DNA from: an uncultured Chlorobiaceae bacterium
GTDB lineage: Bacteria > Bacteroidota > Chlorobiia > Chlorobiales > Chlorobiaceae
Length of the DNA stretch: 40,280 bases
Assembly: GCA_903824295.1 (NCBI GenBank)
Contig: CAIJWE010000014.1
Location: 1-40,280, forward strand
Direction of reading: 5' to 3'
Shown: positions 25,697-40,280 of the stretch, piece by piece
Numbering within the stretch: the stretch's first letter is position 1
Layout: the number at the start of each line of letters is the position of its first letter
Notes under the pieces: model-generated
Database searches by the model: none
What the model saw: the letters and a program-made list of their open reading frames with translations, nothing else
What the model was told of the DNA's origin: nothing
Program-made: the position numbers and the translations under genes

Positions 25697-25907
25697 TTAT
25701 TTTGCTGCTGGTGCTGCAGGTGCTTCTGCTGCAGGTGCTGCTGCTGGTGCCTCTGCTGCTGGTGCTGCAGGTGCTGCTGGTGCTTCTGCTGCTGGTGCTG
25801 CTGCAGGTGCTTCTACAGGAGCTTCTACAGGAGCTTCAGTTTTTTTTTGCACAGCCAACGAAAGAGACTGAGCTTAAAAGAAAGAGGAAAATGAAAAGTT
25901 TTTTCAT
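25697..25907 (-). pseudogene. Small Ala/Pro-rich lipoprotein, frameshifted in a poly-A tract
   Basis: From ATG 25907 the minus strand encodes a lipoprotein signal peptide, MKKLFIFLFLLSSVSFVGC, with a lipobox-like FVGC, then Ala-Lys-Lys-Asn and a TGA at 25838-25836. The other frame continues as about 45 residues of TEAPVEAPVEAPAAAPAAEA-type repeat ending PAAK at TAA 25697. The two frames would join exactly if the nine-A run (25840-25848 on minus) were eight A. The intact product would be a lipoprotein of about 68 residues with a flexible Ala/Pro/Glu linker. A perfect terminator follows. The cause may be mutation, sequencing error or slippage. The cysteine-rich plus-strand reading here is an artefact of the GCA/GCT codons. 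Confidence 0.75.
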
Positions 25908-33767: not shown

Positions 33768-33867
33768 TCCGAAAAGTTACCAAAGATAAGGAAAAAGAGA
33801 GAGCGAACGTTTGATGTTTAAAATATTATTCTCTTCTGAAAAGGTGCATTTGCTGCATTTACTACAT
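33768..33867 (+). repeat. Left copy of ~100-bp inverted repeat with 9-bp iteron-like units
   Basis: It starts with TCCGAAAAGTTA (33768-33779) and ends with a 29-base core (33839-33867) made of TGCATTTGC, TGCATTTAC and TACAT in tandem. The same two blocks occur in reverse orientation at 40182-40280 with almost the same spacing (71 versus 70 bases). The middle of this copy is degenerate. Confidence 0.75.
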
Positions 33868-34018
33868 AGGCCAATGGTGGCGCGCCTCTCTGGGGTGTAG
33901 TATGGAAAAACACCCTACACGCGCTACATGAAGGGAACCGGAACCCGGCCCGGCCCCTGTCGCCTGTCTGGTCTGTCGGAAGGGTGAATGTGCAACCATC
34001 CCTTTACCATACCTGAAG

Positions 34019-35692: not shown

Positions 35693-36595
35693 TCAAAATC
35701 CGTTTTCTCTCAACAAGAAATCTGCAAGGTCAAGCCCTGCAGCTCGATCTTCTTCAGTTGCCCGACGTTCGAGAATGTCACTGACGGTAACGCTCTGCAT
35801 CCCCTTCACGATATCCCGCCATTTTTCATAAGCTCCCAAATCAGGAAAGAGCACAACCCTGCGACCTTGTACCGCTTTCAGCTTTTCCCTGTTGAGATTG
35901 TTCTTTCCCGCAGTGGCAAGCCAAAGGAACTCAGGCATGTGCCCCGCTGCAACAATTGCCGTTTTTTCACTTTCAACAACCGCCACCGGCCTCACCTGAT
36001 CTACTGAAAGCAAGTGCTCACCAAACAAGCATTGATGCAAGTGGTAAGGCTCCAACTTCATCACTTTATGAACCCATTGGATATGATTAAGGGGTTCCTT
36101 CACCCTGCGCCCCGTAGAGCTGTCGTAGAGCATCACTTTTCCCGCCCTGATACGTCCGCCCTTGTCGATCTGCCAAAAGACAGAGGAACCTGGCCAGTGC
36201 TTGGATGTGCCGACCTGATACGCCGCTGTAAGCTCGAAAGCCTTTCGGCCTCCAAACACGCCATGCAACCACCGGCAAAAATTGTTCTGTTCGTAATTCC
36301 TCAAACTCGCTTGCATGAGTGCCGCATCAATAAAAGAAGGTTCCGGCTCCTGTACTGGCTCCCGCTTTCTGGCAGGTGTCACCACGCTACCGAAAGGGTT
36401 CTTGCCAGTCAACAGGAAATGTTCCTTCGGGGTGAGGTGATACCCGCATGAATCCTCACGATCACAACGACCGACAATATCAGCGATCTGCTCGCCGGTT
36501 TCGGTGTCCACGTAGGGAACAAAGCGCATCTTCTTGCAGGCTGGGCAGGCATATTTCAACCCGCCCTTTTCGAGTTCAAAACGAAATTCTGCCAT
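35693..36595 (-). CDS. Zinc-finger/Toprim primase-like protein
   Basis: A 300-residue product. The N-terminus has a zinc-ribbon-like pattern (YACPACKKM, then GRCDREDSCGYH), as in DnaG-type and Bacteroidetes/Chlorobi mobile-element primases (DUF6371-like). The C-terminal half has Toprim features: VAVVESEKTAIVAA (catalytic Glu) and VVLFPDLGAYEKWRD, where the usual DxD is reduced to a single Asp. The ATG overlaps the ATPase stop (TAATG), so primase-like protein and ATPase are made as a pair. I infer a role in replication of the element. Confidence 0.65.
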   Translation of the reverse strand: MAEFRFELEKGGLKYACPACKKMRFVPYVDTETGEQIADIVGRCDREDSCGYHLTPKEHFLLTGKNPFGSVVTPARKREPVQEPEPSFIDAALMQASLRNYEQNNFCRWLHGVFGGRKAFELTAAYQVGTSKHWPGSSVFWQIDKGGRIRAGKVMLYDSSTGRRVKEPLNHIQWVHKVMKLEPYHLHQCLFGEHLLSVDQVRPVAVVESEKTAIVAAGHMPEFLWLATAGKNNLNREKLKAVQGRRVVLFPDLGAYEKWRDIVKGMQSVTVSDILERRATEEDRAAGLDLADFLLRENGF

Positions 36596-38484
36596 TAAAA
36601 CGGCCTCCCGTCATCGGCTAATTCGCTCGACTTTTTTTCTTTTGAGATGGTTTTGGCTGAATCATGTACGCAACGTACACCATGTACACCAGCTTTTTTA
36701 ATTGTGACGGTACGGCCTTTCTTGTTTTGCTGCTTACCCCGCTCAGGCAAAACAAGAACATCCGCCTCTTGAAGTGCTGGAATATTCCGTTTCAGTGCAT
36801 TGGATAAGCCTTTTTCAGACTTCGGCCATCCCTCACTATCACCGCCTTTGTGAGGAGTCAGTTTATCAAGCAACTCCTTGTACGTGCCATGAAAAACAGT
36901 ATCAAACGCTGACTCTTCCGCCATCTCAAGAATTGCCGACGCTACCGGGGAACTCTCAATCGACCTGATAACAGAATCTTTTCGGTTTTCATTATAGAGG
37001 TCAGTGAACGCCCCAGCCTCGTAGCTCATGCTTTGCGCCATCGCCTCACCAAGCCTGCAAAAATCAACCATTCGTTCACGCCCTGACGTTTTGACCTCCG
37101 GCAATTTTGCCAACGTCTTGACAAACAAATCAAGCAACCCGCCAAAAATCTCAGGCAGTGCGGCATCAAAGCCTTTCTGCAAATCACCCTCGCACAAATA
37201 CCGCTCAACACGTGGTAATTCAAGATGGATTGACCTCTCCGTCAAATCTTGTGCGGTAATCAGCGACGGAATACCGTTTATAACAATCGGCCTCTTTACC
37301 TCAATGAGAAACTCTTCACCGTTTGTGAAAAGTGCTCGACCACCCGCGCCTCCGCCCGTCGCTATTGTGCAAAAGGCGTCTTGCCATTTCGCTGGCAGGT
37401 AAGAGAGATTTTCATAGGCAACCATGTGATTGTTTCCTGCGCAAACGAAGATATCCTCAACGTTTTTGGGTGCGGGTCTCAAGTTTGACGTGGACGGGTC
37501 AACCAATGTTCTCAACTGGCTTTCTGTCGTACTCTTCGCTGAACCCATAACCCCGTTCAGTTCCAAAACAGGGAAAGGAGTATCCACCCTGTAGCACTCA
37601 AGCAACCATGCAAGAACCAAAAGCCTGTATTCTTCAGGGATATTGCAGAATTCCCATAGCTTATTGACATCACCCCCATCGACCGGCTCAGGGAGTGCCA
37701 CTGACGAAGAGGGCTTCCAAAATTTCACCGGGGATTTATCCACCATTCGCCACCCGGTAGGCGTGATTTCAACAACCCGGTTTTTCTCATCACCCATGAA
37801 CAAATAATAAGCTCCGGTTTCCTCGTGCTTTGCTGCGCGCATGAAAACCCGCTCTGACTTTCCTTCGAACTTACAAAGCCCTGACAGAGTGCAGCTTGCC
37901 TGTTTTATTGCGCCCTCACTTGCTGACGAATGCCCGGAATCTTTGTAATAGGCAAAACTCAACCACTCCGAAAAATCCATACTTCCAACCTTGAGTGTGA
38001 CGTTATCGCCTGTTATCGTGACAAATGCATCTCGCGCATTTTTATCGTAGAACAATTCACAACGATCAACCACAAGCTTAATCAGTGCTGCCGCAACGTT
38101 TCTTTCCCCGCCGATCTCGCTGTCCGGCCTTGTTGCGTCGTCAATCTCAGAGAGTAAAACCCCGCTTGGTTTCTCTCGCTTGATCTTCACCCGGCAACGT
38201 ATCCAGACCTCATCATCTACCTCCCGGATGAACTTCGCTGCATCAGTAAACTCCGTACTGGCATAAAGTCCAGGGTTTTCTTTGGCCCTTTCAATGATAC
38301 TCTCTACTGTCGCAAGATGCTTTTCAAGCTCTATCTTGTCGATTTCTTGCGTGTTTTCTTGCTGGTGTACATGGTGTACGTTGTGTACATCATTTCGCTC
38401 GTTTTGGCTGGAAAGAAAAAAAGTGCTGTCCACCGCCGCCGAGTTTTCAGCCTCGGCCCTGACTTCATCAATGATGCTTTTCAT
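36595..38484 (-). CDS. P-loop replicative helicase-like ATPase of a mobile element
   Basis: A 629-residue product. It has a Walker A variant ELNGVMGSAKSTTESQLRTLVDPS (about residue 305), a Walker B-like stretch HMVAYENLS, then CTIATGGGAGGRALFTNGEE and RPIVINGIPSLITAQDLTERSIHLELP. This series is shared with ATPases that accompany primases in phages and integrated elements. The N-terminal ~230 residues and the C-terminal basic winged-helix-like part are less clear. Near both termini lie His/Val repeats (VHNVHHVH and VHGVRCVH), which are encoded by a near-perfect 30-bp inverted repeat. It is coupled at both ends to neighbouring frames. Confidence 0.7.
   Translation of the reverse strand: MKSIIDEVRAEAENSAAVDSTFFLSSQNERNDVHNVHHVHQQENTQEIDKIELEKHLATVESIIERAKENPGLYASTEFTDAAKFIREVDDEVWIRCRVKIKREKPSGVLLSEIDDATRPDSEIGGERNVAAALIKLVVDRCELFYDKNARDAFVTITGDNVTLKVGSMDFSEWLSFAYYKDSGHSSASEGAIKQASCTLSGLCKFEGKSERVFMRAAKHEETGAYYLFMGDEKNRVVEITPTGWRMVDKSPVKFWKPSSSVALPEPVDGGDVNKLWEFCNIPEEYRLLVLAWLLECYRVDTPFPVLELNGVMGSAKSTTESQLRTLVDPSTSNLRPAPKNVEDIFVCAGNNHMVAYENLSYLPAKWQDAFCTIATGGGAGGRALFTNGEEFLIEVKRPIVINGIPSLITAQDLTERSIHLELPRVERYLCEGDLQKGFDAALPEIFGGLLDLFVKTLAKLPEVKTSGRERMVDFCRLGEAMAQSMSYEAGAFTDLYNENRKDSVIRSIESSPVASAILEMAEESAFDTVFHGTYKELLDKLTPHKGGDSEGWPKSEKGLSNALKRNIPALQEADVLVLPERGKQQNKKGRTVTIKKAGVHGVRCVHDSAKTISKEKKSSELADDGRPF
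36664..36693 (-). repeat. Left arm of 30-bp inverted repeat inside the ATPase gene
   Basis: This arm lies in the 3' part of the ATPase gene. Its reverse complement matches 38361-38390 at 29 of 30 bases. Each arm holds three TGTAC-containing units spaced 9 bases apart (GGTGTACAT, GGTGTACGT, TG(C/T)GTACAT). Confidence 0.85.
38361..38390 (+). repeat. Right arm of 30-bp inverted repeat inside the ATPase gene
   Basis: This is the partner of 36664-36693, in the 5' part of the gene. It encodes the VHNVHHVHQQ stretch on the minus strand. Both arms are in the same reading register relative to the 9-bp unit, so the repeat is visible in protein as well as DNA. Confidence 0.85.
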
Positions 38485-40117: not shown

Positions 40118-40137
40118 AAATGCAGGGAAATGCAGGG
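40118..40137. repeat. Tandem 10-bp repeat AAATGCAGGG x2
   Basis: Two perfect adjoining copies (40118-40127, 40128-40137), which share ATGCA with the 9-bp units at 40182-40210. They lie in the upstream region of the 273-residue gene. Confidence 0.7.
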
Positions 40138-40181
40138 TGCTTTTCCAAACTGCGCCCTGCAATGCCCGCCCCTGTTGAATA

Positions 40182-40280
40182 ATGTAGCAAATGCAGTAAA
40201 TGCACCTTTTTGAAAAGGTAAAATATTTTACCACTAAAAGCCCTCTCTTTCCCTTTCTTCTTTACTCTTAACTTTTCGGA
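40182..40280 (-). repeat. Right copy of the ~100-bp inverted repeat, with palindrome
   Basis: The 29-base core (40182-40210) matches the left copy at 27 of 29 bases; the distal block (40269-40280) matches 12 of 12. Between them lie a perfect 7-bp hairpin (ACCTTTT-TG-AAAAGGT, 40204-40219) and a perfect 16-bp palindrome GGTAAAATATTTTACC (40217-40232). In the left copy both are degenerate. The match reaches the last base of the window, so the repeat probably extends further. Confidence 0.75.

Follow-up and report, generated by a model that had tools for sequence, protein, structure and literature searches.

The two arms of a near-perfect inverted repeat inside an ATPase gene are probably the two inverted halves of a mobile element's replication origin, bound by the initiator helicase that the same gene encodes. 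The gene lies in a 40,280-nucleotide stretch of DNA from an uncultured Chlorobiaceae bacterium (hereafter, the window), and it sits on an integrative mobile element of this Chlorobium-group bacterium. As read from their sequence, the arms appear to be more than iterons alone, namely half-sites with an additional T-rich box.

A preliminary description of the window had reported that positions 36664–36693 and 38361–38390 are reverse complements at 29 of 30 positions, and this is exact. Both arms lie, as described, within the ATPase gene on the minus strand (36595–38484), and each holds three 9-bp units around GTAC. The units are of the type ATGTACACC, with three copies per arm, and the His/Val repeats that had been noticed in the protein correspond to the (V-H-x)3 or (V-H/R-x)3 encoded by the arms, read as NDVHNVHHVHQ near the N-terminus and GVHGVRCVHD near the C-terminus. 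The repeat is longer than first noted: the full arms match at 32 of 34 positions over 34 nt, and a perfect 13-nt T-rich match, ACTTTTTTTCTTT, is collinear with them on the same diagonal (Table 1).

Table 1. Features of the ATPase gene, its half-sites and the adjoining gene in the window
Feature	Position	Strand	Basis
N-terminal arm, three ATGTACACC-type 9-bp units on the coding strand; residues 31–42, predicted disordered	38361..38394	-	Inverted-repeat search, translation, alignment, model
C-terminal arm, ATGTACACC-type units on the plus strand (inverted); residues 598–609, predicted disordered	36660..36693	+	Inverted-repeat search, translation, alignment, model
T-rich box of the N-terminal half-site, ACTTTTTTTCTTT on the minus strand	38412..38424	-	Collinear inverted match
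T-rich box of the C-terminal half-site, ACTTTTTTTCTTT on the plus strand	36630..36642	+	Collinear inverted match
Initiator-type AAA+ helicase gene, 629 aa, containing both arms	36595..38484	-	ORF, family searches, AlphaFold2 model
Predicted winged-helix DNA-binding domain of the ATPase, residues 513–597; likely iteron reader	36694..36948	-	Secondary structure of the model
Wing of the predicted winged helix in the ATPase	about 36712–36744	-	Model
Walker A motif GVMGSAKST	37528..37554	-	Translation; homologue alignment
Zn-ribbon and DUF6371 protein, probable primase partner, overlapping the ATPase stop	35693..36595	-	Pfam, NCBIfam

The repeat is beyond chance expectation, since an inverted-repeat search gave no other inverted pair of equal length and identity within 5.3 kb, three of the four occurrences of GTACACN3GTACAC in the 2.85-Mb genome are inside the two arms, and paired arrays recur among homologues. 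A strict, unbiased search for inverted pairs of 9-bp arrays gave scores of at least 5 at 29 of 61 homologous loci and in none of 305 shuffled controls (35 of 61 loci and 4 of 305 shuffles at a score of at least 4). The likeness that had been proposed to the 9-bp units of a flanking repeat was not borne out, as the latter has another sequence, AAATGCAG. These short AAATGCAG-type repeats, at 40118–40204, lie near the element end and are unlike the iterons; a 76-nt inverted match (72%; 33819–33894 with 40155–40230), also different in sequence from the iterons, is found near the element ends. The chromosomal part of the window contains a long tandem repeat, TGCTGCTGG, with a 9/12/36-bp period (positions 25703–25837).

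No family match to the ATPase was found in Pfam, PHROGs, NCBIfam or PADLOC. Its AlphaFold2 model (pLDDT 73.8) matched the SaPI5 primase-helicase (7ola; Z 15.7, over residues 112–590), poxvirus D5/E5 (Z 13–14) and SaPIbov1 Rep (8tch; Z 11.6), and the top Foldseek match was SCCmec Cch (5dgk; E 6e-9). On this model, the protein is predicted to be a D5/SaPI-Rep-like AAA+ helicase with a C-terminal winged helix and to share the fold of iteron-binding initiator helicases. A profile search of PDB sequences was set aside, as most of what it returned was ABC ATPases, matched via the P-loop. In the Walker A motif, G311, G314, K317 and S318 are invariant in the homologue alignment. In the model neither arm belongs to the folded part of the protein, both lying in disordered tails (pLDDT <50), the C-terminal arm starting directly past the last strand of the predicted winged helix. 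The protein encoded immediately downstream (Pfam PF19898, 8e-62, and PF21957; NCBIfam PG0870_Nterm) is probably a primase.

A search of the order revealed close homologues in Chlorobium-group genomes, and scanning genome contigs yielded 46 loci, chiefly from Chlorobiaceae and Pseudomonadota but from others too. Plasmid homologues were found in Streptomyces, Methylobacterium and Stanieria, on a Chloroflexota plasmid and on an archaeal plasmid. Viral contigs scanned with the ATPase alone gave no relative, and scanned with an alignment of the ATPase family they gave one. Two inverted arrays of three 9-bp units are carried by homologues from several phyla and from plasmids, and two plasmid copies (L025, L026) have a paired 9-bp array downstream of the gene; no clear array pair was detected in L007, L015/L038, L049, L059, L066, L072 or the Methylobacterium and Stanieria plasmid copies. 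The Streptomyces homologues reside on small plasmids, where they adjoin a primase/polymerase and ParA. Tyrosine integrases are present on related elements, and the window contig stops before the site where an integrase is expected. The same genome holds a second element of the family, with GTTCAC iterons (L009, on contig C124 of G000), besides the GTACAC element of the window, and another genome (G055) contains two near-identical gene copies (L006 and L010) that have GTCCGC arrays in common. Truncated ATPase copies were also seen (L017, L018, L011, L016 and L008); in L017 and L018, residues 211–280 are fused straight to the C-terminal arm (EHSEHCLRV), and these two are possibly non-autonomous derivatives that keep the sites.

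The position of the arrays varies among homologues. With few exceptions the reverse-reading array occupies the 3' end of the ATPase gene, and the majority of relatives have the forward array 40–300 bp from it. In the Chlorobium group, Thiocapsa (L035) and Nitrosomonas (L034), the forward array lies within the 5' end of the gene, and in L003, L037, L061 and L062 it precedes the gene by 0.7 to 2.8 kb. Arrays also occur in the gene that follows (L043, L058) and beyond the stop codon (L051, L052, L054) in other relatives. The distance between the two sets is 1.7 kb in the window and reaches 5.4 kb in L062, and the forward-then-reverse orientation is constant in nearly all elements.

The sequence of the repeat also varies among about 40 relatives, and both arms vary together. 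Units of GTTCAC, GTACAC, GTCCTG, GTTGCC, CGTCAC, GTTCAT, GTCCGC, CGTTCC and other types were seen, alike within one element, with a theme, TGT-CACC, shared across arrays; most relatives carry TGTTCACC and the window TGTACACC. Over 31 elements, array pairs agreed at 7.90/9 within an element versus 5.70/9 between elements, and in a permutation test that disregards relatedness, and whose elements were picked for having arrays, the observed sum of 245 exceeded a permuted maximum of 206, with 0 of 20,000 permutations reaching the observed value. Because of these two properties of the test, changes were also counted on a tree, where parsimony required at least 12 core changes over the family and at least two switches between GTACAC and GTTCAC in the clade of the window. 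Within this clade the residues of the predicted wing differ between GTACAC elements (QQN[K/R]) and GTTCAC elements (K[SQK][SG]), although the independent cases are few; the unit may be matched to the element's own initiator.

Close relatives of the window carry GTTCAC in the N-terminal arm (VHHVHHVH) and GTGAAC in the C-terminal arm (GEHSEH), that is, ATGTTCACC inverted. The closest homologue, L012, is 80% identical and has GTTCAC in all six units, compared with GTACAC in the window. GTACAC is found in both arms in the window and in the element of genome G107, whose two contigs (L013 and L019) were taken as one gene. Transfer of a whole domain between the window and L013 was considered as a source of the common GTACAC and rejected, the window being nearer to L012 over most of the protein, including the C-terminus. 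Relative to L012, the N-terminal arm of the window shows three GTT to GTA changes, all silent, and the C-terminal arm shows GAA to GTA, replacing Glu with Val (owing to a one-residue gap in this arm, two of the three GAA/GTA pairs align directly, whereas the third is displaced by a codon). Since the same switch is silent in one arm and alters the amino acid in the other, we conclude that the DNA is selected and not the protein.

Codon choice likewise differs between the arms and the remainder of these genes. Val is encoded by GTA at 12 of 12 positions in the arms of GTACAC elements and at 9 of 81 elsewhere (p = 7e-10); in GTTCAC elements, Val is encoded by GTT at 16/18 positions in arms versus 126/298 elsewhere, and Glu by GAA at 21/21 versus 161/398. 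Among relatives the arrays are translated in different reading frames, and the Nitrosomonas homologue has a GTTGCC-type unit at both gene ends that specifies unrelated amino acids (DIANVTNLAA). The suggestion that the DNA itself is under selection is thus upheld by arm codons that are fixed unlike codons elsewhere, by the co-variation of the arms and by arrays that relocate, even to other genes. Homologues without the repeat at one or both positions had been named as evidence to the contrary, and such homologues exist in part: little of the N-terminal arm is left in L003, which has a three-unit array 738 bp upstream, and no arrays were seen in a minority of the distant homologues.

The match between the arms extends outside the iterons. 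Arm identity there peaks at 0.59 at positions -30 to -26 from the first unit, against a background of about 0.25, and shifted diagonals gave 0.24–0.32 compared with 0.44 on the true diagonal; the box that corresponds to the T-rich match lies at -35 to -21 from the first iteron in relatives. Each half therefore comprises a T-/pyrimidine-rich box, a spacer of ∼20 bp and three iterons. In the G107 element the halves match in inverted orientation at 57 of 59 positions over 59 nt, spacer included, and the base past the last unit agrees within elements (C/C in the window, G/G in L012, A/A in L013 and T/T in L002). The contig break between the end of L013 and the start of L019 falls inside the gene, a few dozen bases before this 59-nt inverted repeat, which possibly caused it.

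Explanations other than an origin were considered. The ATPase or a regulator might bind the arms as operators, repressing its own operon and limiting copy number with no start of replication there. Iteron initiators commonly auto-repress, the forward array precedes the gene in L003, L037, L061 and L062, and no AT-rich melting element was found. However, the array whose place varies least is the one at the 3' end of the gene, and the majority of relatives have both arrays at that end or beyond the stop, where an operator would serve this gene poorly; a paired inverted layout is also better suited to loading two hexamers, and we regard operators as unlikely. A near-perfect inverted repeat flanking most of a gene might equally suggest sites at which a site-specific recombinase inverts that gene, or some other recombination function. 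In most relatives, however, the arrays are 40–300 bp apart and flank no gene, the direct 9-bp repeats of an arm do not resemble the sites of recombinases, and the constant orientation in nearly all elements does not fit inversion, which makes a role of this kind very improbable.

That the tripeptide repeats (VHx, EHx) are a feature of the protein, for instance metal-binding or interaction tails, is barely credible. The V-H repeats are kept in the N-terminal tail throughout the clade, but in the C-terminal tail relatives have EHx where the window has VHx, elements of the GTTGCC and GTCCTG types encode IAN, SPA or GHA, several arrays fall between genes or in the gene that follows, and codons are fixed beyond what the amino acids demand. 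The match beyond the iterons, at 57/59 in G107, suggests that the halves may be homogenised by copying, through either template switching or gene conversion between inverted repeats, and it is conceivable that copying keeps the arms alike with little direct selection: the G107 match takes in a spacer outside the iterons, and the base past the last unit follows the element. Copying alone leaves unexplained the 3 × 9-bp array in many phyla, the TGT-CACC theme and the renewed arrays at new positions, and as the whole explanation we think it quite improbable, less so than a protein feature or inversion but more so than operators. It may instead be the route by which both arms change at once, and as such it is compatible with an origin.

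The arms are probably a variant of the iteron origins of D5/Rep-type initiators. SaPI Rep and SCCmec Cch2 recognise short iterons beside their own gene via a C-terminal domain (PMC7581432), and PICI origins contain two iteron sets (PMC6092414). The family described here resembles SaPI/PICI Rep and SCCmec Cch/Cch2 in having an AAA+ initiator helicase of the same (predicted) fold with a C-terminal DNA-binding domain, and the SaPI/PICI origins in its short iterons next to the gene, in two sets. It differs from them in very low sequence identity, in iterons inside coding sequence, in half-sites with an added T-rich box and, in the Chlorobium group, in sets that stand at opposite ends of the gene and enclose no AT-rich region. 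A layout of the PICI type, with both sets immediately 3' of rep and flanking an AT-rich region, was not found: one set of the window is near the 5' end, and no AT-rich unwinding element was seen near the arrays or between the sets in relatives, so that in position and in the AT-rich region the family departs from the PICI type. The Streptomyces theta plasmids pFP11 and pWTY27 are likewise RepA and iteron replicons, and pFP11 encodes a homologue of the ATPase (28%, E 4e-34). RepA of pFP11 was reported to bind its own iterons (PMC3583192), and from its place in the replication module we infer that the published RepA is the homologous ORF. The repeat past the pFP11 gene differs in having an 11-bp period. 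Phage P4 shares with the GTTCAC-type relatives (L002, L012 etc.) the unit TGTTCACC, identical to the P4 type-1 iteron, and P4 has two separate cis regions (ori1 and crr), its crr units being inverted and spaced at 9 bp; the P4 sites are outside the alpha gene, however, the window itself has TGTACACC, and the ATPase family gave no significant match to P4 alpha (hhalign probability 1.4–6.6%). Phage lambda O and the repA genes of N15 and PY54 carry an origin sequence within the initiator gene, and are similar to the window in this respect. Their origins are at one place in the gene and their initiators belong to other families; no 9-bp array comparable to those of the window family was detected in N15 gene 37 (repA).

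In the two-part origin that we propose, the initiator would be encoded between the halves and is probably hexameric and D5/SaPI-Rep-like. Its C-terminal winged helix would bind the three 9-bp iterons of each half, and the protein would load on the halves in opposite orientation and then unwind the DNA. Intragenic iterons bound by the element's own replication protein, as first suggested, are supported by the homologous sequences and by the predicted fold of the ATPase, but the winged helix of the ATPase is a likelier binder than the HTH protein that had also been put forward. In the Chlorobium group, looping or bridging over about 1.7 kb would be required, owing to the relocation of one half to the gene's 5' end. 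Several points weigh against an origin of this kind: the sets are far apart for a single origin, at 1.7 kb in the window and as much as 5.4 kb in L062, no AT-rich unwinding element like the one in PICI was found between them, some homologues have no clear array pair, and P4 alpha reads TGTTCACC too, yet has no significant sequence relationship to the family.

The origin and its initiator can be predicted, from sequence alone, for a large unnamed family of integrative elements and small plasmids. Tentatively, and at somewhat less than even odds, this would be a widespread initiator family with a two-part inverted origin in the protein tails, whose halves relocate while keeping their orientation and in which the 9-bp code and the wing change in concert. 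If code and wing do change in this way, the elements would fall into replication specificity groups, and natural wing/iteron pairs, maybe changed together, would offer a direct route to the recognition code. The DNA-level constraint shows up in the protein as unusual tripeptide repeats, and annotated proteins can be screened for this signature. If the halves are bridged over the gene in the Chlorobium group, firing of the origin would be coupled to expression of the initiator.
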